NCBI RefSeq assembly: GCF_000367945.1
Contig: NZ_KB849179.1
Location: 124,001 to 188,000 of the forward strand
DNA length: 64,000 bases
Origin: Acinetobacter proteolyticus
GTDB lineage: Bacteria > Pseudomonadota > Gammaproteobacteria > Pseudomonadales > Moraxellaceae
Direction of reading: 5' to 3'
Shown: positions 13,728 through 27,267 of the stretch, piece by piece
Numbering within the stretch: position 1 is the first letter of the stretch
Layout: every line of letters begins with the position of its first letter
Program-made: the position numbers and the translations under genes
Notes under the pieces: generated by a model
Seen by the model: only the letters and a program-made list of their open reading frames with translations
Databases searched by the model: none
Told to the model about the DNA's origin: nothing

Positions 13728-14639
13728 GTGAATTTAAAGAATCTGGAAGCATTTTACTGGGTGGTGACGCTGAATAGTTTTAATAAGGCAGCGACAAAAT
13801 TACAAACCACTCAGCCAGCAGTATCACAGAAAATCACCGCGATTGAAAATGACCTTGGATTTAAAGTTTTAGATCGAAGTTTTCGCCAACTGAAACCGAC
13901 GCACAAGGGCATGACCTTATTTAAATATGCTGAAAAATTGATGCGTTTAGAAACTGAACTCATCGCAGAATTAACTGAAAATCAGCATTTGACTGGTACA
14001 ATTCGTTTGGGCGTTTCGGAAACCATAGTCTACACATGGTTGGTGGAATATATCGAGAAAGTTCAGCAGGAATTCCCTAAAGTTTCTGTGGAAATTGTGG
14101 TTGATCTAACCCCGAATTTACAAGAAGGCGTACGCACAGGTGATCTGGATATGGCCTTTTTACTCGGACCAACGCTGGCTTTTGAATGTATTGAACAGGC
14201 ACTTTGTGACTTTGAACTTAGTTTCTTGGCTTCACCTTCATTTAAAGGAGGGATTGCTCAAATGTCATTTAAGACCTTAATGTCACATACCATTTTAACC
14301 TATCCAAAAATTACCTATCCCTATAAAGAGCTGAAAGCCAAAATGAAGGAACAGGGGCTGGATGAGCCGCTTTCGATCACCAGTTATTCCTTGGCAACAT
14401 TATTACGACTTGCTGAGCAAGGTTTGGGAATCGCTGTGGTGCCGACCTTAACCGCTTTAAAAGAAATTACCGATGGTCGATTAGAAATATTAAATACACC
14501 AATTAAGTTAAAGACCTTTCACTTTACCTCTATTTATATTCAAGGCAATGATGCTGCATTGAAAGAGAAATTAACCGATGTCGCCGTGACGGTTTCTGAA
14601 AGTGCGATGAAAAGCTTGAATCAGAAAATAAAAATTTGA
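13728..14639 (+). CDS. LysR-family transcriptional regulator
   Basis: A 303-aa LysR-type regulator starting at GTG. The N-terminal winged HTH is clear (LEAFYWVVTLNSFNKAATKLQTTQPAVSQKITAIENDLGFKVLDRS); the effector domain follows from residue 90 with the usual two-lobed pattern. It is co-oriented with and upstream of the 5-oxoproline cluster (365-bp gap), so it is the most likely local regulator of it. In Bacillus subtilis the equivalent operon has an IclR-type regulator, KipR, instead. Confidence 0.9.
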   Translation: MNLKNLEAFYWVVTLNSFNKAATKLQTTQPAVSQKITAIENDLGFKVLDRSFRQLKPTHKGMTLFKYAEKLMRLETELIAELTENQHLTGTIRLGVSETIVYTWLVEYIEKVQQEFPKVSVEIVVDLTPNLQEGVRTGDLDMAFLLGPTLAFECIEQALCDFELSFLASPSFKGGIAQMSFKTLMSHTILTYPKITYPYKELKAKMKEQGLDEPLSITSYSLATLLRLAEQGLGIAVVPTLTALKEITDGRLEILNTPIKLKTFHFTSIYIQGNDAALKEKLTDVAVTVSESAMKSLNQKIKI

Positions 14640-15004
14640 GGTGCTTAAAGCAAGCTTCTGTAAGAACCGTGTATATGGAATCCAACAGCTGCAAAGTTAA
14701 AAAATTATAAAAGCAGCTTATCAGGAGTGATAAGTAAAATTTATCTTTAAACTAATCATAAATAAAAAGTAATTAAATTCAATGGATTGATTTTAATTTT
14801 ATATCTAAAAAGTCGTATTGTTCAGTTGGCTTGCATATGTTTTTATTTGAACGAGAAGATTTGATTACCCATCGCTGAGTGGGAGAACAGGGAATCTTTG
14901 TGATTTAAAAAGGATTAAAGAAGATCGTTTATAAACAAAATGATGCTCTTGGATCAAGTTGAAAATCGCGTTATTGAGCTCAAATGGATGAGGAACGCAT
15001 CAAT
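14640..15004. other. Intergenic region before the 5-oxoproline cluster
   Basis: AT-rich, no ORF of note. It should contain the cluster promoter and the LysR binding site. A short inverted repeat CCCA-N8-TGGG lies near 14868-14883. I could not assign a convincing -35/-10 pair. Confidence 0.4.
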
Positions 15005-16237
15005 ATGTCTTTACTGAAATCTTCTTTGCTATCAGATCGTCAATGGGCCATTGTCGCCTCCATTTTTATGATGGCAACCTCTGCCATGGGACCTGGGTTT
15101 TTAACCCAAACTGCTGTATTTACAGTGAAACTAGGGGCTGCATTTGGTTTTGCCATTTTAGTTTCAATTTTGATTGATTATGTGGTGCAGCAAAATATTT
15201 GGCGTGTAGTGACGCTCACGCAAATGCGTGCATCCGATATTGCCAATAAGGCTTTACCAGGCAGTGGTTATTTACTTGCATTTCTGGTGATTTTAGGTGG
15301 TTTCTTCTTTAGTATCGGAAATATTGCAGGTGCTGCACTGGGGCTGAATGCGCTATTTGGTCTGGATACCAAATGGGGCGGTATCCTCAGCGGGGCATTG
15401 GCGATTTTGATTTTCGCTTCAAGAAAAGCCACGCTTGCGATGGACAAAAGCATGATCGTATTGGGATTGCTGAAAATCATCCTGATCATCATTGTGGCTG
15501 TGATTGTAATGCCGCCTGTTGGGCAGGCGGTACAGCAAACCTTTGCACCAGATCAGATTGACTTTGCCATTATTACCACCATTGTCGGTGGCACGGTGGG
15601 TGGTTATATCTGTTATGCAGGTGCGCACCGTCTACTTGATAAAGGTGCGGTTGGCCCTGAAAATATTGATGAAGTAGCCAAAGCTGCGACCAAAGGTATT
15701 GTGGTGGTTGGTATCATGCGCTATGTCTTATTTTTAGCCTTCTTGGGTGTGGTAGTGAGTGGAGCAAGTATTGATTTAGCCAGTCATAATGCTAATCCAG
15801 CGGCACAAGCATTCCAATATGCAGCAGGCACATTTGGTTATAAATTATTTGGCCTGATCTTTTGGGCAGCAGGTATTAGTAGCACCATTGGTGCAGCTTA
15901 TACCTCGGTTTCATTCTTTAGTGCATTTAAAAAGAATTTAACCCCAAAACAAAGCAACTATACCACCATCACTTTTATTGCCTTAGCCTTATTACTCTAT
16001 GTGGTATTAGGGGCAACGCCAGCAGGTCTGCTCATTTTTGTGGGTGGTTTTAACGGTTTAGTGTTGCCAATTGGCCTTACAATTTTTGTCTATGTTGCGG
16101 CTTGCCGTAGAGACTTGATGGGCAATTATAATTATCCAAAATGGTTAATTATTCTAGGTGCGTTAACCTGTGTATTGACGTGGTGGATGGGCTATATGTC
16201 ATTTACAACCGTGTTTAACTATTTGACCAAACTTTAA
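15005..16237 (+). CDS. NRAMP-like transporter of the 5-oxoproline cluster
   Basis: Inner-membrane transporter of 410 aa with about eleven helices, NRAMP/APC fold by overall pattern (AMGPGFLTQTAVF in helix 1). The metal-coordinating DPGN expected about seven residues after GPGF is absent, and the helix-6 MPH motif is replaced by GAH. It is therefore unlikely to move Mn2+ or Fe2+ like true NRAMPs. A YcsG-type NRAMP relative sits in the same gene set in Bacillus subtilis (ycsFGI-kipIAR), so uptake of 5-oxoproline or a related amide is the better guess. ATG 15005 is chosen because GAGGAA lies 10 bp before it; an upstream ATG at 14984 lacks one. Confidence 0.82.
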   Translation: MSLLKSSLLSDRQWAIVASIFMMATSAMGPGFLTQTAVFTVKLGAAFGFAILVSILIDYVVQQNIWRVVTLTQMRASDIANKALPGSGYLLAFLVILGGFFFSIGNIAGAALGLNALFGLDTKWGGILSGALAILIFASRKATLAMDKSMIVLGLLKIILIIIVAVIVMPPVGQAVQQTFAPDQIDFAIITTIVGGTVGGYICYAGAHRLLDKGAVGPENIDEVAKAATKGIVVVGIMRYVLFLAFLGVVVSGASIDLASHNANPAAQAFQYAAGTFGYKLFGLIFWAAGISSTIGAAYTSVSFFSAFKKNLTPKQSNYTTITFIALALLLYVVLGATPAGLLIFVGGFNGLVLPIGLTIFVYVAACRRDLMGNYNYPKWLIILGALTCVLTWWMGYMSFTTVFNYLTKL

Positions 16238-16272
16238 GCTAGATAATCGTATAGCGAAAAAGGAATACTGCC

Positions 16273-17037
16273 ATGTTTGTAGATTTAAACAGTGATTTGG
16301 GCGAAAGCTTTGGCTCATGGAAAATGGGTAATGATGATCAGATATTACCTGTGGTGACCAGTGCCAATATCGCATGTGGTTTTCATGCTGGCGATCCGCT
16401 CGGCATTTTAAAAACAGTTCGTAAAGCAGTTGAGCTTGGTGTGACCATTGGTGCTCATGTGTCTTACCCAGATCTGGTTGGTTTTGGCCGCCGTAATATG
16501 GATGTGTCACGTGATGAACTGATTGCTGATGTGCTGTATCAAATTTCAGCATTGGACGGTTTGGCAAAAGTGGCAGGTTCGAAAGTGCAATATGTTAAAC
16601 CACATGGCGCGCTGTATAACACCATTGCTCATGATCAAGCTCAGGCAGCCGCTGTGATTGATGCGATTAAAATGTACAACCCTGAACTGGTTTTAGTGGC
16701 TTTGGCGGGGTCAAGCTTGGTCGAGCAGGCGCGTGCCGCTGGTTTAAACGTGGTGTCTGAAGCATTTGCAGACCGCGCTTATAACAGCGATGGTTCACTG
16801 GTCTCTCGCCGTCTAGAAGGTGCAGTTTTACATGACTCGGCATTTGTGGCGAGCCGTGTGGTGTCTATGCTTAAAAATGGTGGGGTCGAGTCAATTGATG
16901 GCGTATTTACCCCAATTCAGGCCGACACCATTTGCTTACATGGAGACACCGACGGTGCATTAGAAATGTCGGCAGCGATTAAAGCCGAGCTTGTAAAAAA
17001 TAATATCGAAATCAGACCATTTGTAAACAAAGCATAA
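16273..17037 (+). CDS. pxpA: 5-oxoprolinase subunit A (LamB/YcsF family)
   Basis: Cytosolic 254-aa protein of the LamB/YcsF family. The motifs [11 protein letters not shown] at the N-terminus, [36 protein letters not shown] and the SRRLEGAV region are characteristic. PxpA works with PxpB and PxpC to hydrolyse 5-oxo-L-proline (pyroglutamate) to glutamate with ATP. Both partners are encoded two genes downstream as a fusion. An AAAAAGGA ribosome binding site precedes the ATG. The family is fold-related to polysaccharide deacetylases/amidohydrolases. Confidence 0.95.
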
Positions 17038-17048
17038 GGATGAGCACC

Positions 17049-17855
17049 ATGTATAAGGATATTAAAGTCGAACCAGCTCAGCTTAAAGCCGCTTTAGATG
17101 CGCGTTTAAAAATCCGTGCTGGCTTTGACAAACCGACAGCAGGTATGGCTGCGGGTATGACACAGGTCAACATGATTTCGGTGCCAAAAGCGTGGGCCTA
17201 TGACTTTTTACTCTATGCACATCGTAATCCACAAAGCTGCCCAGTCCTTGATGTGCTCGAAGAAGGCATCTATGCAACTCAGCTTGCAGCAGACTCAGAC
17301 ATCCGAACCGACTTCCCGCGCTATCGCATTTGGAAAGAGGGAGAAATGGTTGAAGAAGTGACCGATGCCAGCGAGATTTATAATGCTCATCCTGATTTGG
17401 TGACTTTCTTGATTGGTTGCAGTTTTTCGTTTGAAACCGCTTTGCAAGAAGCGGGGATCGAAGTTCGCCATATTCATGATGACACTAATGTGCCGATGTA
17501 TTTGAGCAATATAAAGTGCGAACCAGCAGGGCGAATCTCAGGCAATATGGTGGTTTCTATGCGACCAATTCCATCACATCAAATTAGTGAAGCCGTAAAA
17601 ATTACCGCACGTATGCCAAGTGTACATGGTGCACCAGTGCATATTGGACACCCTGAAAGTTTAGGAATTTTAGATGTAAATAAACCTGATTTTGGTGAAG
17701 CCTCTCGTATCGAAGCAGGTGAGATTCCTGTGTTTTGGGCATGTGGGGTAACACCGCAAGCGGCAGTCATGAATTCGAAAATTCCTTTTGCGATTAGTCA
17801 TGCACCGGGTCACATGTTGATTACCGACATTCCTGACCGTGCTTGGATTGGTTAA
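17049..17855 (+). CDS. D-glutamate cyclase family protein (DUF1445, 'putative hydro-lyase')
   Basis: A 268-aa cytosolic protein of the YcsI/DUF1445 family. Recognisable blocks are [60 protein letters not shown] and [17 protein letters not shown]. Bacterial members are labelled putative hydro-lyases; the family includes mammalian D-glutamate cyclase, which interconverts D-glutamate and 5-oxo-D-proline. Lying between pxpA and pxpBC, it would link D-glutamate to the same pool. ATG 17049 is used since AAGGA lies 8 bp before it; ATG 17040 would overlap that site. Confidence 0.85.
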
Positions 17856-17887
17856 TTGGACTAAAGAACAATTAAAAGGATAAGCAA

Positions 17888-19471
17888 ATGCGTTTTTTAT
17901 CCGTAAACGCCGACTGTTTTCTGATTGAGCTTGCGAGCCTCGAAGAAACATTGGCGTTGTACAATAAATTGCAACATACGCAATTGAATGGAATTAAAGA
18001 CTTAGTCCCTGCTGCAAAAACAATTTTGGTTTTTTTTAACGAGATCGAAACCAACTTTAAAACGCTGGTTGCTTCAATTCAGAGGCTCAAAATTGCTGCT
18101 GGATTTGAGCGTAGCGGCCAAGAAGTGATTGTGCCGATTCGTTACGATGGCGAAGACCTTGTGCAGGTTGCCGAGTTACAAGGGTTATCTGTTGCCGATG
18201 TGATTAGAAAACATCACCATAGCGTCTGGAATGTAGCTTTTATTGGTTTTGCGCCGGGCTTTGCGTATATGAGCAGTCCCGATAAGCCTTTTACCGATAT
18301 TCCACGCTTAACGGTTCCGCGTAAAAAAATACCCTCAGGCTCTTTGGGTTTGGCTGGACAATACTCTGGTATTTACCCAAAAGACAGTCCGGGTGGCTGG
18401 CAGTTGATTGGGGGCACATCGGAAAAAATGTGGGATTTGGAGCGGAAAAATCCAGCACTATTGTTACCAGGCATGACCGTACATTTTGAGGATGTCACGT
18501 ATCGTCCAACCACAGTGACTGTACCGCAGCAAATCACGCGCACAGTTGAGCCAAAACAATCGCTGCCGCTGTTTAAGATTACTGCGCCAAGTTTACAGAT
18601 GCTGATTCAAGATGAAGGGCGCTTAAACCAGACCAAGATTGGCGTTGGAATGGCAGGTGCAATGGATTTGTCTGCCATGCACAGTGCTAACCGTATTGTG
18701 GGGAATCCAACTAATACACCTGTCATTGAAGTTTTAAATGGCGGATTGAAAGCCAAAATGCAGCATGCCGCCGTGATTGCTGTTACAGGTGCCATCTCAA
18801 ATATTCGTGTGAAATTTACTGATGGTCAAAGCGCAGACTTTACAAGTGATCAGCCGATTGATCTGGATGAAGGCGATGAGTTTCATATTCAACCACCCAC
18901 GGCAGGCTTACGAAACTATGTTGCCGTTCGTGGAGGTATCGACGTTCAACCCATACTGAATAGTGCTTCATTTGATAGTTTGGCGGTGTTAGGGCCAGAA
19001 CCTTTAAAGCTTGGAGATACTATTTACCAAGGACAGATAAAGGCAGCCAACATTAGTGTCAATGAAGTGGGTAAAAACGATTTGCCCAAAGTTGGTGATG
19101 TGGTTGAGCTAGACATCGTGATGGGTCCACGTACCGATTGGTTTGAGCAAGACAGTATTGAACTGTTGTGTCAGCAGGAATGGCTAGTGACCAATGAAAG
19201 CAATCGCGTTGGGCTCAGACTTTCAGGCGCACAGCCTTTAACACGCACAATTACCCATGAACTCGAAAGTGAAGGCACATGCATTGGCGCTTTGCAGATT
19301 CCACCCAGTGGCCAACCGGTTTTGTTTATGAATGATCACCCTTTAACGGGTGGCTATCCCGTCATTGCCGCCGTTGCAAAACATCATTGGGATTTGGTGG
19401 CACAGATTCCTGCGGGTTGCTGGATTAAATTTAAAAAAATTGCCGAATTTACAGATTTTGAGAATAAATGA
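17888..19471 (+). CDS. pxpBC: 5-oxoprolinase subunits B and C fused (PxpB-PxpC, KipI-KipA)
   Basis: A 527-aa fusion. Residues 1-215 are PxpB/KipI (AHS1) with FAPGFAYMSS, VPRKKIPSGSLGLAGQYSGIYPKDSPGGW and LIGGT; residues 225-520 are PxpC/KipA (AHS2) with LQMLIQDEGRLNQTKIGVGMAGAMD and NDHPLTGGYPVIA. In most genomes these are separate genes. The same two domains make up the carboxyltransferase part of urea carboxylase. The stop overlaps the next gene by 4 bp (ATGA), so it is co-translated with the biotin carboxylase. Confidence 0.93.
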   Translation: MRFLSVNADCFLIELASLEETLALYNKLQHTQLNGIKDLVPAAKTILVFFNEIETNFKTLVASIQRLKIAAGFERSGQEVIVPIRYDGEDLVQVAELQGLSVADVIRKHHHSVWNVAFIGFAPGFAYMSSPDKPFTDIPRLTVPRKKIPSGSLGLAGQYSGIYPKDSPGGWQLIGGTSEKMWDLERKNPALLLPGMTVHFEDVTYRPTTVTVPQQITRTVEPKQSLPLFKITAPSLQMLIQDEGRLNQTKIGVGMAGAMDLSAMHSANRIVGNPTNTPVIEVLNGGLKAKMQHAAVIAVTGAISNIRVKFTDGQSADFTSDQPIDLDEGDEFHIQPPTAGLRNYVAVRGGIDVQPILNSASFDSLAVLGPEPLKLGDTIYQGQIKAANISVNEVGKNDLPKVGDVVELDIVMGPRTDWFEQDSIELLCQQEWLVTNESNRVGLRLSGAQPLTRTITHELESEGTCIGALQIPPSGQPVLFMNDHPLTGGYPVIAAVAKHHWDLVAQIPAGCWIKFKKIAEFTDFENK

Positions 19472-21192
19472 TGAAAACTGAAAAATTACTGATTGCCAAT
19501 CGTGGTGAAATTGCCGTTCGTATTATCCATGCTTGCCGTGATATGGGAATTGCATCGGTCGCGTTATATGCTGATGACGACATTGGCAGTATGCATGTCG
19601 AACTTGCAGATGAAGCATGGGGTTTGGCTGGTGCAACCGCCAGTGAAACCTATTTAAATATTGCAGCCATTATCGAGATTGCAAAGAAATCCAAAGCAAC
19701 CATGGTGCACCCAGGGTATGGCTTTTTATCTGAACGTGCCGAATTTGCTCAAGCAGTGATTGATGCAGGTTTAAAATGGGTCGGGCCATCACCGAGTGCA
19801 ATTGAAAAATTAGGCGATAAAATCGAAGCACGTAAAATTGCGGCTTCGGTCGGTGCACCTTTGGTTCAAGGGACCCAAGACCCACTCAATAATGCCGATG
19901 AAGCTTTAGCATTTGCCAAACAATTTGGTTTACCGATTGCGATTAAGGCTGCATTTGGTGGTGGTGGTCGTGGTTTAAAAGTGGTGTGGAAACTTGAAGA
20001 AGTCAAAGAGCTGTATGAGTCTGCAGTACGAGAGGCCAAAGCTGCCTTTGGTCGTGGTGAATGTTTTGTTGAGCAATATCTAGATCAACCGCGCCATGTA
20101 GAAGCGCAAGTGATTGCTGACCAACATGGCAATATTGTGGTACTCGGAACGCGTGATTGCTCTTTGCAACGTCGTAACCAGAAATTAGTTGAAGAAGCGC
20201 CAGCACCCTTTATTAGCGATGAGATCTATCAACAAATCTTAAGTTCGGCAAAAAATATCTGTCAGGCGGCAAACTATGTCGGTGCGGGGACAGTTGAATA
20301 TTTACTCAGTCGTGACGGAAAGCTTTCATTTTTAGAAGTAAACACCCGTTTGCAAGTTGAGCATCCTGTCACTGAAGAAACCTCAAAAGTCGATTTGGTG
20401 GTAGAACAAATCCGTGTCGCACAAGGGCATACCTTGTCGATTCAAGAAACACCAAAAGCACAAGGCCATGCGATTGAGTTTCGTATCAATGCCGAGGACC
20501 CAGCACGTGGGTTTATTCCAGCATTTGGTGTGCTGAGCTTATTTGAAGCGCCGTTTGGTCATGGCGTACGCGTCGATACAGGGGTCCGAACTGGGTCATT
20601 GGTCTCCAGTCATTTTGACTCTCTCATGGCAAAACTGATTGTGACGGGCCCAACCCGCGAAGTTGCTATAGCCCGCGCTAAACGTGCGTTAAAGCAATTT
20701 AAAATTGAAGGTGTGGCTTCGGTTTTAGATTTCCACCGTGCGGTACTCAATGAACCTGATTTTAGTGATGAGTTTAATATCCATACCCGTTGGATCGAAA
20801 ACGATTTTAAACAGGAGTTGAAGCCAAGCAAACGCAGTATTCCCAATCATCAACAACCCATGCTGCTCAGCTATATTGAAATTGATGGCAAATTACATCG
20901 TTTAGGTTTACCAGCAGGCATGTTTGCACAAAATCCTGCAAGTGCGGTTGAACAGCAGCAGTCGATTGAACCTGAACTGAGCGCTGAGCATTTACTGGCT
21001 CCGATCAATGGTGTGATTAGTTCATGGAAAGTTACGCAGGGTGAGCAGGTGACCAAAGGGCAGATTGTCGCGATTATGGAAGCCATGAAAATGGAAGTCC
21101 CCGTGCTTGCGCATCAAAATGGAGTCATTCAAATCGTGGCAGAACAGGGAAAAAGTTATCAGGCTGAATCGATTATTGGCATGATCGAATGA
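19468..21192 (+). CDS. Biotin carboxylase-BCCP fusion of the 5-oxoproline cluster
   Basis: A 574-aa protein with the biotin carboxylase modules in order: N-domain (KLLIANRGEIAVRIIHACRD), ATP-grasp with glycine loop GGGGRGLKVV and EVNTRLQVEHPVTEE, C-domain, then a C-terminal biotinyl domain with the EAMKMEVP site (biotinyl lysine about residue 541). It resembles the subunit A of acyl-CoA carboxylases, but no acyl-CoA carboxyltransferase gene is near. The only carboxyltransferase-like domains are PxpB-PxpC next door, overlapping by 4 bp, giving all the domains of urea carboxylase in two polypeptides. Confidence 0.92.
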   Translation: MMKTEKLLIANRGEIAVRIIHACRDMGIASVALYADDDIGSMHVELADEAWGLAGATASETYLNIAAIIEIAKKSKATMVHPGYGFLSERAEFAQAVIDAGLKWVGPSPSAIEKLGDKIEARKIAASVGAPLVQGTQDPLNNADEALAFAKQFGLPIAIKAAFGGGGRGLKVVWKLEEVKELYESAVREAKAAFGRGECFVEQYLDQPRHVEAQVIADQHGNIVVLGTRDCSLQRRNQKLVEEAPAPFISDEIYQQILSSAKNICQAANYVGAGTVEYLLSRDGKLSFLEVNTRLQVEHPVTEETSKVDLVVEQIRVAQGHTLSIQETPKAQGHAIEFRINAEDPARGFIPAFGVLSLFEAPFGHGVRVDTGVRTGSLVSSHFDSLMAKLIVTGPTREVAIARAKRALKQFKIEGVASVLDFHRAVLNEPDFSDEFNIHTRWIENDFKQELKPSKRSIPNHQQPMLLSYIEIDGKLHRLGLPAGMFAQNPASAVEQQQSIEPELSAEHLLAPINGVISSWKVTQGEQVTKGQIVAIMEAMKMEVPVLAHQNGVIQIVAEQGKSYQAESIIGMIE

Positions 21193-21276: not shown

Positions 21277-21750
21277 CTATCTCAGTTCATAGTCAGCTAA
21301 AATACCGTCATGGTTATAGTGCAGTACAATGTTTTTTGAGCGTTGAATTTTGGATAGTTCCTCCTTTGGAATCAAAAATCCTTCAGCAAGAATGGAATGG
21401 CTTACGTTCACCACAGTCGTTTTTTCCGTGTTTCGGTATCGCAACCAGTTATAGCTTGCCCATAACAACAATGAGGCACAACAGATCATCACCATCAAGG
21501 CGAGCCAAAAGAAATTGTGGATCTGTACGCTCATCTGTTCTGCAAAAATATAGTTTTTAATCAGCTTACCTTGGTATAGCCATAAAAAAATCGCCAATAG
21601 AGGTAAAAATAGCAGTGTCCAGAGTGCCCAACCGACCGCATGCAGCAAATAATGTGCGCCTTTGTTTTTTACATACTGATGTTGGTCAATATATTCAGGA
21701 ATATCCAGCTGTGAGATATCCTCAATGATATTCAAATGTTGTTTGTTCAT
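21277..21750 (-). CDS. pgaD: Poly-beta-1,6-N-acetylglucosamine synthesis protein PgaD
   Basis: Small inner-membrane protein (157 aa) that pairs with PgaC to form the c-di-GMP-responsive PNAG synthase. It has two membrane helices (about residues 35-60 and 80-105) and soluble ends, as in other PgaD proteins. It is last in pgaABCD and overlaps pgaC by 4 bp. Sequence conservation in this family is low, so the call leans on order and topology. Confidence 0.88.
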   Translation of the reverse strand: MNKQHLNIIEDISQLDIPEYIDQHQYVKNKGAHYLLHAVGWALWTLLFLPLLAIFLWLYQGKLIKNYIFAEQMSVQIHNFFWLALMVMICCASLLLWASYNWLRYRNTEKTTVVNVSHSILAEGFLIPKEELSKIQRSKNIVLHYNHDGILADYELR

Positions 21751-22991
21751 TCTGACTCACCTTTAAAACCGCGATCCGGGCTGATCCATCTCGCTCTTTT
21801 GTTACGGGTAAATAAAGCTTTGGGAACAGCTACCACGGTTGTAGCTGCACCGAGCATCCAAAAAAACAGGGGATACCAAATCACCCAAAAATAATTTCTA
21901 AGGAAACGGTTTCCGTCGTATCGTCTGTCAATGAATAAACTCACAAAAAATTGAATCAGACAGGTGATGGCTAAAATGACGCCGTACCACTGTGGAAATA
22001 AGGATTTAATCTGCCATTCTGCGGATAGCGGAACAAACAACCCAAGGAAAAACAGGATAATGATCAGCAAAATGACATAGGCCCAGACCATGCTGATGAT
22101 CGCTTCAAGCGCGACAGGCCACATTTTGAGTGCTGAAATCTTAAAGAGTTTGGGAAAATAGGTTTTAATGACTTCAACCCCACCTTGAGCCCAGCGCAAT
22201 CTTTGTTTCCATAGCCCTTTAAACGTTTCAGGCATATAGATGTAGCACAGCGCATTGGGAACATAGTGAATATCCCATTCAGCGAGCTGAAGTTTCCATG
22301 AGATATCAATATCTTCAGTAATCTTATCTTCTGACCATAGGCCCACTTGCATCAGTGCAGTTTTTCTAAAGCCAGCAATCACACCTGAGACTGTAAAAAT
22401 ACGTCCATACGTCCGTTGGGCACGTTTAATTAAACCAATAATGGAGGAAAACTCACCCACCTGTAATTTACCTAAAATACTGGAGCGATTTAAAATCCGA
22501 GGGTTTCCAGTCACAGCGCCGACCTGATTAAATGCTGTAAGTTGATGCATCATCCAAATCGCAGCATGGGGATGCAGCAAGGCATCTCCATCAATACAAA
22601 TCAAATATTCATATTGGCTGACCATCATGCCTGAACGTAAGGCAAAAGCTTTACCTTGATTTTCTGCCAGATGTACAACCCGTAAACCGGGATGTTCAAG
22701 CGCCATTTCATCCAATATTTTTGCGGTATCGTCTGAACTGCCATCATTGACGGCGATGACTTCAAATTTTGGATATTGTGTTTGTAGTGCAAACCGTAGG
22801 GTTTCTCGAACTTGAGCTTGTTCATTAAAACAAGGAATGATAATGCTGCATCCTTGTTCTGAAATCTCGGGTAATTGGTTTTGCTTATATTCGCGTTTAA
22901 AGTAGAACCATAAACCACCTACCATCCATGTCCATGCCATCAGCAAGGGATATATAAAGGCAAACAGGAAAAGAGTTTCCATTAAGGTCAT
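21747..22991 (-). CDS. pgaC: PNAG glycosyltransferase PgaC
   Basis: Processive family-2 glycosyltransferase (414 aa) that polymerises GlcNAc from UDP-GlcNAc at the inner membrane. An N-terminal helix precedes the catalytic domain, with VIAVNDGSSDDT, CIDGDALLHP, the EDID acidic motif and QRLRWAQGG (the QxxRW motif). Further helices follow at the C-terminus (AYVILLIIILFFLGLF and others). It overlaps pgaB and pgaD by 4 bp on each side, showing tight coupling. Confidence 0.96.
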   Translation of the reverse strand: MTLMETLFLFAFIYPLLMAWTWMVGGLWFYFKREYKQNQLPEISEQGCSIIIPCFNEQAQVRETLRFALQTQYPKFEVIAVNDGSSDDTAKILDEMALEHPGLRVVHLAENQGKAFALRSGMMVSQYEYLICIDGDALLHPHAAIWMMHQLTAFNQVGAVTGNPRILNRSSILGKLQVGEFSSIIGLIKRAQRTYGRIFTVSGVIAGFRKTALMQVGLWSEDKITEDIDISWKLQLAEWDIHYVPNALCYIYMPETFKGLWKQRLRWAQGGVEVIKTYFPKLFKISALKMWPVALEAIISMVWAYVILLIIILFFLGLFVPLSAEWQIKSLFPQWYGVILAITCLIQFFVSLFIDRRYDGNRFLRNYFWVIWYPLFFWMLGAATTVVAVPKALFTRNKRARWISPDRGFKGESE

Positions 22992-24802
22992 GGCTGTTCT
23001 CCATTTACGTGCTGCTGGAGAAATGGATTACGATAACTGATTGGACTGTCATTTAAGCTGAGTGGGGTAAATAGTTGTTCATGTACCGCTTTTGCATTAT
23101 CAAAGCGGTAATTGCTTAAAACCAATTTTTGGATTCCATGTCTTTGTAAATTTAAATAGTGTTGCTGCAAACGTTGTAACTGCTTTGGAGATGACTGGTC
23201 GTGATTAACTAAAGTCACCATCATCCTGGCTTTTTGTGAGGCAGTTAAATGATCTACCTGTTGTATAAATTTTTGATAGCTATTGAAATTGTCTAGACTG
23301 TCAATTTCAATATTCAATAAGGATACGTAAGGCAGATAGGTGTTAACCATTTGCTCTAAGCCCTGATCTGCTAAATCAGAGAGTGAGAGTTGTAGCGTTA
23401 AATGAAAGGGATTACTCTGATTGAGATAAGGCGCGATCGCTGTTTTTAGCTGTTGGGTTAATCCTAAAATTTGAGCTTCTTTTTTCAGACACGCTGAGTT
23501 CACCACAGTGCTATAACGACAAGCGAGTTGTTGATCTGTTTTTAAAATAATGCCATCCAGATTGGGATTATTCTGGATCAGATCTTTGCTTAAATCGATA
23601 ACTCGATGTGCTTGCTTTGGGTCGCGGGGAGTCGGCATTTGTGCATAAACCCGATGAAAAATTCGTGTTCGTGTCTGCCAATGGGTCCGGCTTAAAATAT
23701 CTTGAGCCAGTTTTAGATGCGTTGTTGGAAAGTAGCTTTGAGCATAGGCAGCATTATTTTGATCAGTGAATGCATTAACGATTAAAGTATTGGTTTTTAA
23801 GGCACTTAAATTATTTAATAAACTACCTAACTGCTGATTAAACTGTGTACTGTCTTGTGAGAATTGGCCCAGATCAAATTGCACAGCTCGAATAGGTTCA
23901 TACGCTTGTCGCTGACCGTATTCCATAAAACCTGTGAGTTGTTCACGTAAATTTTCAGCTGTTGGATTATTTGAAACAATACCGCGTTGAAAGGTTGCAT
24001 CGCTGGTATTATTTAATTTTTCTGTTCCCAAGCTAAAAGATAGAGGAAAACCTGCTTGATTGGCAATTTGAGTGACTTGTTGATTAACCGCACCATAGGG
24101 CCAAATGATTGCAAGTGAATCTATTCCTAATTTTTGCTGCAAGATTTGTTTGGATTTCACCAGATCGTTATAAATCCGCTGCTTATATTCTGACTCGGTT
24201 TCATAGCGCTGTTGGGTTACATCGTATCGTCGAGTTAAGGCGGCAGGCTTTTCATTTTTCTGTATGTTGGCCAATACGCCTTTATGCAAATCATGGCTAT
24301 GGCTGGCAAATTCAACTAAACCTGACTTTTGCATGTCTTGTAATTGTTTCCAGCTCATCAAATTATTTTGACCATAGGCTTCATAGGCCGCTTGCGTATT
24401 ACCTTCGGTCCAACTGATCACCAAGGCAAAGACCACAGGGATTTGATATTGTTTTACGAGTGGATAGACGTGGCTGTAGCTACTTAAGGCGCCATCATCA
24501 AAACTAATTAAAACTGCATTTTTCGGTAATGGAACACCATGTTCCCGAGATGCCATAATTTGTTTGAGGCTAATTGGAGTCCATTCAGAACGTTTCAGCC
24601 ATTCAAAAAACTGCACTAAGTTTTGGGTATTAATGGCATAGACATCTCGGTCGCCATTCTTCAAAACATCATCACGTACATCATGAAAGGTCAAACTGAC
24701 AAAATGATGAGCGTCGAATTTAGCAGGTTCCGCTGCAACAAGATGAACTGGAAGGAGAACTGCACAAGCGGAGAGTATTTTAAAAATATTCAAAAAATTC
24801 AT
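22988..24802 (-). CDS. pgaB: PNAG deacetylase PgaB
   Basis: Periplasmic protein of 604 aa that partly de-N-acetylates PNAG for export. The N-terminal polysaccharide deacetylase domain shows FHDVRDD, the metal Asp pair in ISFDDGALSSY and the HSHDLHKG (H-x3-H) motif; the C-terminal half is the glycoside-hydrolase-like domain (about 300-600). The N-terminus has a signal sequence with a possible lipobox LSAC at Cys13, in line with PgaB being an outer-membrane lipoprotein. Its ATG shares one base with the pgaA stop. Confidence 0.95.
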   Translation of the reverse strand: MNFLNIFKILSACAVLLPVHLVAAEPAKFDAHHFVSLTFHDVRDDVLKNGDRDVYAINTQNLVQFFEWLKRSEWTPISLKQIMASREHGVPLPKNAVLISFDDGALSSYSHVYPLVKQYQIPVVFALVISWTEGNTQAAYEAYGQNNLMSWKQLQDMQKSGLVEFASHSHDLHKGVLANIQKNEKPAALTRRYDVTQQRYETESEYKQRIYNDLVKSKQILQQKLGIDSLAIIWPYGAVNQQVTQIANQAGFPLSFSLGTEKLNNTSDATFQRGIVSNNPTAENLREQLTGFMEYGQRQAYEPIRAVQFDLGQFSQDSTQFNQQLGSLLNNLSALKTNTLIVNAFTDQNNAAYAQSYFPTTHLKLAQDILSRTHWQTRTRIFHRVYAQMPTPRDPKQAHRVIDLSKDLIQNNPNLDGIILKTDQQLACRYSTVVNSACLKKEAQILGLTQQLKTAIAPYLNQSNPFHLTLQLSLSDLADQGLEQMVNTYLPYVSLLNIEIDSLDNFNSYQKFIQQVDHLTASQKARMMVTLVNHDQSSPKQLQRLQQHYLNLQRHGIQKLVLSNYRFDNAKAVHEQLFTPLSLNDSPISYRNPFLQQHVNGEQP

Positions 24803-27267
24803 TAGAATCGCCCTCCAAAACCGAATAGGGCATAGCTTTGTTTTTCATTGATGCCATCATAGGGATGTAGTCTCCAACCAATGCCATATTGCAATGCCCA
24901 AATCCGTGACAATTGCCATTCATGTCGATATTGCACGTCAAAAGTCGGTTTGGAAGCGTAATCCTGTTGCTGGAACAACCCTGCATCAATAGAAAAATTT
25001 TGATTGAAGTGACGCTCATAACTTCGCCAAGTTAACCAGTCATGACTTAAGTTGATCGCAAGGCTATAACTTTGTTTGGGACTGAAATAAGCAACGTTAT
25101 CTAAACGATTTTTTCCTAGAAATGTAGAAAAGCCTGCTTGTGTAGTGTGATGAGCAGTTTGGAAAATACGTTGCTTATAATTTGCAAAAAAATCTTGGCG
25201 TTTGTTGCCATCACTGATCTTGGTATAGCTGTAGCCTACATCGGCTTGCCGAGATTCATGTTGTTGCCATCGAATTGCAGCGCCATAAGATTCGCCATTT
25301 TCTCCTTGTGCAATGGCTTGTAAAGGGATATTGGCTTGGGTGTTGATGGATAATGCATATTGCCAATAGTCATTCAGTTGATGTGACCAATCTGCTCTTA
25401 AGCCTTGACGCTGACCTTCTGTATTTTGAGAGGCAACCAGTGCCAAATTTTTACCTTTGTCTTGCCATTGCAGACCTAAACCAAAGCGTTGTTCTTGTAA
25501 ATCACCATCGGCGTATTTTCCCCAAGTATCTTGATGTTCAAGCAAGATGCGATAATTGTCTGCGAGCCAAGGTGAATATAAAGTAGTGTTAGATTCACGA
25601 TCACGGGTTCCTTTAAGTGATTGGAGTAATTGGTTTTGTTCAGAGCGGCTATGTGAAAAGCGACTTTCATGGCTCATACTGGCGTGATTACGATCATTTA
25701 ATTCTTTATGACTTTTTATAATGCTGCTATCGCTTGGGTAGTCTTTAATAAGGGCTTGCGTTTGCTGCTGCCAAGCTTGAATATCCCCAAGTGCTTGATG
25801 GTTTTGCATGGCATTGATCCGTGTGTACTTGGATTGCGGTTGTAAACCATTTAAAAGTTCAATTGTGTGTTGAGCTTGACGAGGTTTTTCGCGCCAACGT
25901 TGGATTTTGGCCAAATCATTTAAAAATTGCGCATTATTCGGAGCTTTGGCTACGGTGTTATTTAGATATTGTTCTGATAAATCCAAGCGGTTGCGATAAG
26001 CCATATTTAAAGCCAGCAAAGACAGATATTCATTTCGATCTGCATGTACACTTTTATCGACACCTTTCGCTTCACTGTATTCATATGTGGGAATCAGTTC
26101 ATCAATGACGTGAATCAAGGTATTTGCATCTTTATATTTTTCTTGTTCGATTAATGCATAATAAAGTGATGTATACAGACTGATATCGGGATAGTTTTTC
26201 TCCGTGAGCAGGCTGCGGTAGATCCTTTCGGCTTCAGCAGGTTGTTGATTTGCAAGGTATGTATTTGCAATCGCATGGCGTGTATAGGCTGGCATCTGTT
26301 CAATTGGAGCTAATCCGACTTGCTTTAAGATATACAAAAGCTGTTGTGTTTTACCTCGATAATTTAAGGCATAGAGATAGTCATAATAGAAGCGATTAAA
26401 CATTGCTTGATCAGCTGGAATCTGCTGGGCGATTTGTTCTGCCTGTTCCAAGACTTGGTCGAGTTGTGCAAAGCTTGTGCTGTCATTTTCAGCGCGTGAG
26501 GATAAATATTTTTGTTGTTTGATGGCCTCATTCACATTTTGTGAAAATCTTCCAATTCTATTTAGCCAAATAAAATTCTGGTGGCTATTAGATAGGTGGT
26601 GCTTTTCAGAAAAAGCAGTTGCCATTTCATAGCTACCCAGTGCCACCAAAATATTCAAATACTCATATTGAATGGCTTCATTGTTGGGTTGTTGGGTATA
26701 GGCCAACTGAATGACTTGTAATGCATAAGTGTATTGTTGCAATAACCGATAAACATAAGCGGCTAAGGCCAACTGTTCAGCATTCATTTGCGTTGTATCA
26801 AGATTCTTTAATTGCTTTGCTGCTTCAGTCGGTTGTTTATTTTCAGCCAATAATGCCGCTTTGAGAATGGTGACTTGAACTTTATTATGTAATTGATAAA
26901 TTTCAAATTTATCTAATAGCGCCAATGCCGCAGCAAACTGCTTCTGATCTCGTAAAAGTTTAACTGTTACAAGTTGAGCATATTCTGGGAAGAGCTTTGG
27001 CTGAATTCGTTGGGTTAAATCAATCAGAGTGGCTTGTGGCAGAGCTTGAATGCTTGAGGCTGATAGTAAATAGTCAGCTAAGATGAGCTGTTGATCTGGG
27101 TATTGCTGTAATAAGGATTCAAGTGTTGTTAATCCTTGGACTGTTTGTCCATTTTTAATTTGAGAAACTGCTTTTTCTCTTAAAAAATCAGAGGGATGTG
27201 CATGTGAAATATTAGACATAAAAAGAAACAACAGGCTAGCTGGAAAGAGTGATTGAAGATTTTGCAT
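24802..27267 (-). CDS. pgaA: PNAG outer-membrane export porin PgaA
   Basis: First gene of the operon, 821 aa. A signal peptide (cut after SHA) is followed by a long helical tetratricopeptide-type region to about residue 510, which guides the polymer, and a C-terminal 16-strand-type beta-barrel ending in the outer-membrane signature GFGGRF. It exports deacetylated PNAG with PgaB. No Shine-Dalgarno is seen before the ATG, and a perfect CRP-like palindrome lies about 50 bp upstream. Confidence 0.94.
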   Translation of the reverse strand: MQNLQSLFPASLLFLFMSNISHAHPSDFLREKAVSQIKNGQTVQGLTTLESLLQQYPDQQLILADYLLSASSIQALPQATLIDLTQRIQPKLFPEYAQLVTVKLLRDQKQFAAALALLDKFEIYQLHNKVQVTILKAALLAENKQPTEAAKQLKNLDTTQMNAEQLALAAYVYRLLQQYTYALQVIQLAYTQQPNNEAIQYEYLNILVALGSYEMATAFSEKHHLSNSHQNFIWLNRIGRFSQNVNEAIKQQKYLSSRAENDSTSFAQLDQVLEQAEQIAQQIPADQAMFNRFYYDYLYALNYRGKTQQLLYILKQVGLAPIEQMPAYTRHAIANTYLANQQPAEAERIYRSLLTEKNYPDISLYTSLYYALIEQEKYKDANTLIHVIDELIPTYEYSEAKGVDKSVHADRNEYLSLLALNMAYRNRLDLSEQYLNNTVAKAPNNAQFLNDLAKIQRWREKPRQAQHTIELLNGLQPQSKYTRINAMQNHQALGDIQAWQQQTQALIKDYPSDSSIIKSHKELNDRNHASMSHESRFSHSRSEQNQLLQSLKGTRDRESNTTLYSPWLADNYRILLEHQDTWGKYADGDLQEQRFGLGLQWQDKGKNLALVASQNTEGQRQGLRADWSHQLNDYWQYALSINTQANIPLQAIAQGENGESYGAAIRWQQHESRQADVGYSYTKISDGNKRQDFFANYKQRIFQTAHHTTQAGFSTFLGKNRLDNVAYFSPKQSYSLAINLSHDWLTWRSYERHFNQNFSIDAGLFQQQDYASKPTFDVQYRHEWQLSRIWALQYGIGWRLHPYDGINEKQSYALFGFGGRF

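Follow-up and report, generated by a model that had tools for sequence, protein, structure and literature searches.

Why should genes for a 5-oxoprolinase of the PxpABC kind be tied to a gene for a biotin carboxylase (BC)? A five-gene cluster in a 64,000-nucleotide stretch of the Acinetobacter proteolyticus genome (contig NZ_KB849179.1, positions 124,001 to 188,000; hereafter, the window) raises this question. There, a PxpB-PxpC fusion (PxpBC) lies beside PxpA and a fusion of BC to a biotin carboxyl carrier protein (BC-BCCP). We find that PxpBC and BC-BCCP are inherited together as a unit, and good support for their pairing comes from gene linkage, joint loss, intact catalytic residues, and the structure of a complex formed by homologues. 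With moderate confidence, we read the cluster as a biotin-dependent form of prokaryotic 5-oxoprolinase, in which carboxybiotin would activate the lactam on PxpBC and PxpA would hydrolyze it; N- or O-carboxylation would then replace phosphorylation. Published papers are given by PubMed Central (PMC) identifier.

Six window proteins, including a LysR-family regulator, were scanned against Pfam and NCBIfam at their cut-offs. By gene order and gene types, the cluster is very probably the genus ortholog of the mumRTLUHC operon (mumR plus mumTLUHC) of Acinetobacter baumannii, published as manganese import plus urea carboxylase/allophanate hydrolase (PMC5050338), and its positions are named accordingly:

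13728..14639, plus strand: LysR-family regulator (mumR position), with HTH_1 and LysR_substrate domains; gene order as in PMC5050338
14984..16237, plus strand, in-frame ATG at 15005: NRAMP-fold transporter (MumT position), Pfam Nramp at 86.6 bits
16273..17037, plus strand: PxpA (LamB/YcsF) hydrolase (MumL position), LamB_YcsF domain, V63
17040..17855, plus strand: D-glutamate-cyclase family protein (MumU position), PF07286, DUF1445 (D-Glu_cyclase)
17888..19471, plus strand: PxpB-PxpC fusion (MumH position), the proposed carboxyltransferase, CT_C_D then CT_A_B; R140, Y159
19468..21192, plus strand: biotin carboxylase-BCCP fusion (MumC position), AccA3-like, with Biotin_carb_N, CPSase_L_D2, Biotin_carb_C, and Biotin_lipoyl domains; biotinyl K541

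Open reading frames and Pfam matches define five co-directional genes at 14984-21192, with the regulator gene upstream. The PxpBC and BC-BCCP frames overlap by 4 bp (ATGA at 19468-19471), and the biotinyl lysine K541 of BC-BCCP sits in an AMKM motif, all in agreement with an initial annotation that had described this fusion, overlap, and biotin site. The same annotation placed the carboxyltransferase (CT) of urea carboxylase between BC and BCCP, as is borne out by the copies in this genome (BC - CT_A_B - CT_C_D - BCCP), relative to which the CT halves of the window fusion (CT_C_D, CT_A_B) are inverted. As it also stated, no further carboxyltransferase was found by Pfam among the six scanned proteins. 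Homologues of PxpA, PxpB, and PxpC are all encoded in the cluster. The window PxpBC misses the NCBIfam equivalog cut-offs for PxpC (166.2 bits versus 500) and PxpB (117.3 versus 145.55) and passes the broader TIGR00724 domain model (241.2 versus 230.2 bits). Elsewhere, the 4.31-Mb genome encodes two full urea carboxylases, two acyl-CoA-type BC-BCCP subunits, and one AccC. Acinetobacter sp. NIPH 2100 (L154) carries the identical five genes in the same order, with a PxpBC 91% identical to that of the window. Promoter- and terminator-like sites between 14500 and 21500 showed no excess over shuffled expectation (11 versus 14.7 and 2 versus 7.5, respectively).

To place the window among its relatives, 199 Pseudomonadota genomes were searched with PF02626, which gave 114 places in 81 genomes, 36 of them in frames of at least 1180 amino acids (urea carboxylase type). 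Seventy-seven of the remaining 78 places were read (the window and 76 fetched loci); the omitted one, in genome G004, starts at a contig end. Locus domains were found with hmmsearch, using profiles trained on the window proteins and on the proteins they matched, over ∼6 kb per side (shorter at contig ends), and PxpBC types were assigned from a FastTree tree of 83 sequences. The window belongs to a clade of 11 loci (support, 1.0), in all of which a fused BC-BCCP and PxpA adjoin PxpBC. Locus L046, with PxpBC in two frames and BC-BCCP and PxpA likewise beside it, stands outside the tree and was assigned to the window type by gene order alone. Ordinary types, including that of Escherichia coli, account for 59 loci, and 56 of these have no BC in the stretch. 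BC and BCCP genes accompany the other three (L023, on the opposite strand, L050, and L060), and their BCs cluster with housekeeping AccC. A second PxpBC clade, SB1, comprises five Pseudomonadota loci with separate BC genes; BCCP is present in four, and the fifth (L028) ends at a contig end. L026, the sister of SB1, has no BC within its stretch.

Linkage extends well beyond this sample. We took as named loci the best 80 of 574 confirmed relatives in GTDB species genomes, found with a query alignment of ten window-type PxpBC proteins and ranked on PxpBC only, and counted as adjacent any gene on the same strand within 3 kb. Among these best 80 of 574, which cover Pseudomonas, Photorhabdus, Xenorhabdus, Burkholderiales, Rhizobiales, Acinetobacter, and Actinomycetota, 77 have an adjacent BC, 73 a BCCP match, and 79 an adjacent PxpA. 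The three lacking BC are L146 (Marisediminicola), L165 (Arthrobacter), and L176 (Microbacterium). BC is present and the BCCP match absent in four: L159 and L164, where contig ends are near, and L152 and L162 (both Frigoribacterium). The L164 BC departs at one catalytic residue. The Frigoribacterium BCs lack the catalytic Asn/Arg, and a BC-BCCP is found elsewhere in the genome; the linked protein may be a decaying or repurposed subunit.

Loss within the genus follows the same pattern. Across 79 genus genomes (E value up to 1e-150 for BC-BCCP and up to 1e-60 for PxpBC), each protein was detected in 33, the identical 33, and the two genes were always adjacent on one contig. The co-occurrence check proposed in the initial annotation is thereby borne out, both here and in the 11 of 11 linked loci of the Pseudomonadota clade. 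The pair is kept in both of two genus sublineages, whose PxpBC shares 73 to 100% and 51 to 56% identity, respectively, with that of the window; one genus PxpBC (genome G213) has an internal TAG. Given these linkage counts, the association of PxpBC with BC-BCCP is not due to chance, and the data strongly support the conclusion that the two subunits act together.

The linked biotin carboxylases largely keep their catalytic residues. We checked 15 BC positions, labeled after E. coli AccC, in 89 linked BCs (counting L046): 12 never vary, and the remaining three are conserved in 87, 86, and 87 proteins. Every one of the 85 linked proteins with a BCCP match carries the biotin motif MKM, as AMKM in 84 and as SMKM in one. 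Judged from these residues, the biotin carboxylase site is intact. Compared with known structures, the window BC-BCCP scores 674 and 668 bits against mycobacterial AccA3-type chains, versus ∼390 for AccC structures such as 1BNC and 322 for urea carboxylase. In a tree of 47 sequences from a chosen subset of loci, Mycobacterium smegmatis AccA3 branches within the linked BC-BCCP clade, away from the AccC of the A. proteolyticus genome.

A solved complex brings homologues of both proteins together. The window PxpBC, modeled with AlphaFold2 from 25 sequences (mean predicted local distance difference test score, 89.3), matches TTHA0988, MSMEG_0435-0436 (3MML), E. coli YbgJK (5DUD), and Kluyveromyces lactis urea carboxylase/amidolyase. 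By its title and chains, PDB entry 9YX5 (released 2025-11-26) is an M. smegmatis long chain acyl-CoA carboxylase (LCC) complex with MSMEG_0435-MSMEG_0436 bound; these are its PxpB- and PxpC-like chains, and AccA3 is also among the chains. In a tree of 112 sequences, which covers 27 of the best 80 named loci, the M. smegmatis PxpBC nests within the window clade (support, 1.0), and a second tree agrees. MSMEG_0435-0436 rise upon nitrogen depletion (PMC4617892).

The Actinomycetota loci suggest how such a pair may have arisen. In 70 genomes, PF02626 gave 23 places in 19 genomes, 20 of which were fetched; the other three are frames of 1229 and 1426 amino acids and a place in genome G278, which is L165 and is counted among the named loci. 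Among the 20, L185 and L192 are fragments of urea carboxylase, and L183 is intermediate. Three are of the ordinary Gln159 type (L184, L186, and L188), and in each of them the operon includes BCCP and BC genes. Four are SB1-like (K140, F159), three of them with BC and BCCP and the fourth, which ends at a contig end, with BCCP only. The remaining ten are of the window type, and a linked BC-BCCP occurs solely in L200. In all ten genomes, an open frame of 598 to 744 amino acids encodes a BC-BCCP that is 45 to 57% identical to that of the window; in the nine with unlinked loci this protein is AccA3-like (9/9), as it is in the genomes of L146 and L165 (2/2). Because AccA3-like subunits are common in Actinomycetota, the unlinked loci agree with the use of a shared AccA3 but do not prove it. 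The simplest history would be that the type used a shared AccA3 in Actinomycetota and reached Proteobacteria along with an AccA3-like gene.

Residues of PxpBC and PxpA distinguish the window type as well. Position 159 is aromatic in all 35 window-type proteins with linked BC (24 of them named loci) and in two of three without, and also in urea carboxylase (6/6), SB1 (5/5), L026, and M. smegmatis. None of the 60 ordinary-type proteins in the first set is aromatic there; Gln occupies the position in 49 of 57 without BC and in all three with an AccC-like BC. The position was chosen post hoc out of ∼460 columns; only the agreement of SB1 and urea carboxylase does not depend on that choice. A rule equating Gln159 with absence of biotin carboxylase was dropped, since L184, L186, and L188 combine Gln159 with BCCP and BC in the operon. 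R348, P370, R415, W418, and P485 also mark window-type PxpBC and recur in the ten Actinomycetota proteins of this type, with single exceptions at 348 and 418. PxpA of the window type has V63 in 92% of 38 proteins (a chosen subset) and in 7 of 8 Actinomycetota partners, ordinary PxpA has P63 in 50 of 51, and the window-type PxpA proteins cluster together (support, 0.81). Since PxpBC, BC-BCCP, and PxpA are each type-specific, the three proteins change together. Separately, the SB1 loci (L024, L025, L028, L031, L034, L187, L189, L190, and L194) keep Lys at the site of K1605 of K. lactis urea amidolyase (KlUA) and mostly have separate BC, BCCP, and PxpA genes nearby; SB1 is perhaps another biotin-dependent lactam enzyme.

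What, then, is the substrate? The window PxpA is the sole LamB_YcsF match of the genome, and a genome search detected neither Hydantoinase_B nor another stand-alone PxpBC. Only the transporter exceeds the NRAMP cut-off in this genome; it reaches Pfam Nramp and misses the NCBIfam MntH (34 bits versus 430) and Nramp_1 cut-offs. Compared with E. coli MntH, it has GPGF for DPGN and GGY for MPH, which we take to be the NRAMP metal-site motifs. All 43 NRAMPs of the fetched loci have other residues in place of D and N in DPGN and of M and H in MPH. In Corynebacterium glutamicum, growth on 5-oxoproline requires PxpABC and an NRAMP-family relative, PxpT (PMC13274462), and the window protein probably transports 5-oxoproline, like PxpT/YcsG. 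Its MumT counterpart is described as a manganese transporter (PMC5050338), although the window NRAMP lacks the metal-site residues. The pxpA cluster of A. baumannii is said to degrade 5-oxoproline on the basis of work in other species (PMC11734730). By its gene content, the cluster likely acts on 5-oxoproline. The protein at the MumU position belongs by Pfam to the D-glutamate cyclase family and would presumably make 5-oxo-D-proline.

We propose the following sequence of events. The NRAMP-fold transporter would import 5-oxoproline, and BC-BCCP would carboxylate the biotin on K541 with ATP and bicarbonate. PxpBC would then pass the carboxyl group of carboxybiotin on to 5-oxoproline, at the lactam O or N, to activate the ring, and PxpA would open the activated ring to give glutamate, the carboxyl group departing as CO2. 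We infer the carboxyl transfer, the ring opening by PxpA, and the loss of CO2 from observed domains, residues, linkage, co-loss, and a bound homologous pair. A bolder version, which we put forward tentatively and with distinctly less confidence, holds that carboxybiotin rather than ATP directly activates 5-oxoproline, with CO2 recycled; that the type came from Actinomycetota with their shared AccA3; and that the classical 5-oxoprolinase of Pseudomonas putida may be a biotin enzyme. Component A of the P. putida enzyme is given as 64 and 51 kDa, its sequence unreported, in PMC8453981, which differs from the 75 and 63 kDa in PMC6061476; a Pseudomonas-like pair (L058) has computed masses of 61.3 and 57.0 kDa, and P. 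putida is not among the best 80 of 574 named loci.

Parts of this chemistry have been conceived before. A carboxy-activated lactam is discussed for caprolactamase and OplAB, which require bicarbonate and belong to another family (PMC8453981, PMC11033972), and the idea of carboxyl activation, without biotin, is therefore not new. Lombard and Moreira suggested that free homologues of the urea carboxylase carboxyltransferase (UCT) might partner other BCs (PMC3199775). In the literature searched, we found no proposal of a biotin-dependent PxpABC. Biotin-dependent carboxylation would be new chemistry for the PxpABC family.

The cluster could instead encode a biotin-dependent lactam or amide carboxylase-hydrolase for another substrate, such as 5-oxo-D-proline, hydantoin, or another small lactam. 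The D-glutamate cyclase family converts D-glutamate to 5-oxo-D-proline, and a gene of this family lies in the operon and near PxpBC in 30 of the best 80 named loci. Type-specific residues in both PxpBC and PxpA would also fit a changed substrate. However, the genome encodes no PxpA and no stand-alone PxpBC outside the cluster, and a PxpT-like transporter suits 5-oxoproline. We consider this alternative credible but unlikely.

Next in standing, though doubtful in our judgment, is that PxpBC phosphorylates 5-oxoproline with ATP like ordinary PxpABC and that BC-BCCP is regulatory or serves another carboxyltransferase. R140 is common to ordinary PxpB, the title of 9YX5 names an acyl-CoA carboxylase complex with PxpBC bound, and ordinary PxpBC occurs near AccBC-like genes in L023, L050, L060, L184, L186, and L188. 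Against this explanation, a dedicated BC-BCCP is found across phyla, it and PxpBC are tightly linked and lost together, and position 159 is aromatic as in urea carboxylase, a state absent from 60 of 60 ordinary proteins of the first set.

The published label of the operon fits poorly. The MumH position has carboxyltransferase subdomains only, with no Amidase or AH_C domain, and the MumC position has no carboxyltransferase domain (both by Pfam); a urea carboxylase built from MumC would therefore need MumH. In A. baumannii (PMC5050338), the mumC deletion did not use urea nitrogen and grew more weakly in high urea, the mumH deletion still used urea nitrogen, and loss of mumT also impaired urea use; calprotectin sensitivity was common to the mumH and mumC deletions and absent in mumL and mumU losses, and mumU had no predicted function in the description of the operon. 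These phenotypes misfit the published enzyme, because a MumC-based urea carboxylase without MumH lacks its carboxyltransferase; we count the phenotype shared by mumH and mumC in favor of the biotin-dependent reading. This genome also has separate urea carboxylases of 1201 amino acids, scoring 1916.6 and 1858.8 bits against TIGR02712 (cut-off, 1303.85), and the window chains score 148.8 and 510.9 bits, below the cut-off. One of the two stands beside a true allophanate hydrolase (L014:5022-10580; Amidase and AH_C, L014:8646-10580). The second lies beside two DUF1989 proteins, UAAP1 and UAAP2 (L015:5939-11093), a neighborhood that we take to be a guanidine-type setting. Thus, although every urea carboxylase domain is present and the mumC deletion has its urea defects, a split urea carboxylase of MumH and MumC is very improbable: the mumH deletion uses urea, MumH has no hydrolase domain, the genome has its own urea carboxylase and allophanate hydrolase, and K1605 is replaced by Arg. 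On domains, scores, this residue, and the enzymes of the genome itself, we rejected the urea carboxylase/allophanate hydrolase identity.

Several observations weigh against the biotin-dependent 5-oxoprolinase reading itself. K1605 of KlUA, the K of the KYNPAR motif by residue count in our alignment, is the proposed general base of the enzyme (PMC5770610). Lys holds this site in 6 of 6 urea carboxylases, and Arg holds it in 39 of 39 window-type (R140) and 57 of 57 ordinary proteins, so the transfer chemistry cannot simply be carried over from urea carboxylase. The suggestion in the initial annotation that biotin-borne carboxylation of a lactam precedes PxpA hydrolysis is partly supported: the partnership of PxpBC with BC-BCCP is upheld by linkage, co-loss, intact residues, and the homologue complex, 5-oxoproline is a likely substrate, and N- or O-carboxylation in place of phosphorylation is our proposal. 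Nine of the ten Actinomycetota loci of the window type lack a linked BC, and linkage to BC is not a mark of the window type alone, since L184, L186, and L188, of the ordinary type, carry BCCP and BC. Ordinary PxpABC mostly has no linked BC, and its reaction thus has no obvious need of one. Entry 9YX5 demonstrates binding only and is named by its depositors for acyl-CoA carboxylase. Finally, the biotin model accounts neither for the urea defects of the mumC and mumT mutants nor for the lack of a calprotectin phenotype on loss of mumL (PMC5050338).

If the biotin-dependent reading holds, biotin-borne carboxylation as a temporary activating group would be a second chemical strategy for opening an unstrained lactam. 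It would correct the urea carboxylase reading of an A. baumannii operon tied to calprotectin resistance and manganese, supply a role for the contact observed in PDB 9YX5, and account for the homology between PxpBC and the carboxyltransferase of urea carboxylase.

Elsewhere in the window, genes downstream of the cluster on the minus strand (21277-27267) resemble, by eye from their open reading frames, a pgaABCD-type poly-N-acetylglucosamine locus. Between 26001 and 30000, the G+C content is 0.32 and 0.30 in two 2-kb steps, versus 0.36 to 0.46 elsewhere in the window.

Four known systems frame the cluster. It shares gene order and gene types with mumRTLUHC of A. baumannii; that operon was published as manganese and urea enzymes, whereas the domains and context here point to lactam opening. 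With PxpABC of E. coli, Bacillus subtilis, and C. glutamicum, it shares the PxpA, PxpB, and PxpC families and Arg at the K1605 position (E. coli). Unlike those systems, the window has PxpB and PxpC fused, a dedicated BC-BCCP, and a PxpBC that belongs to a distinct clade with characteristic residues (A43, F118, L155, Y159, R348, P370, R415, W418, F480, and P485). Urea carboxylase/amidolyase (PDB 3VA7, 5I8I) resembles it in having BC, BCCP, both CT subdomains, an aromatic residue at 159, and P485, and differs in being one chain rather than two, with the CT halves in the opposite order and K1605 in place of Arg; the window adds PxpA and has no allophanate hydrolase. The fourth is the LCC complex of 9YX5, in which a PxpBC of the same clade is bound with AccA3, kin of the window BC-BCCP; there, in contrast, biotin is carried by the shared AccA3, and PxpB is a chain apart from PxpC.

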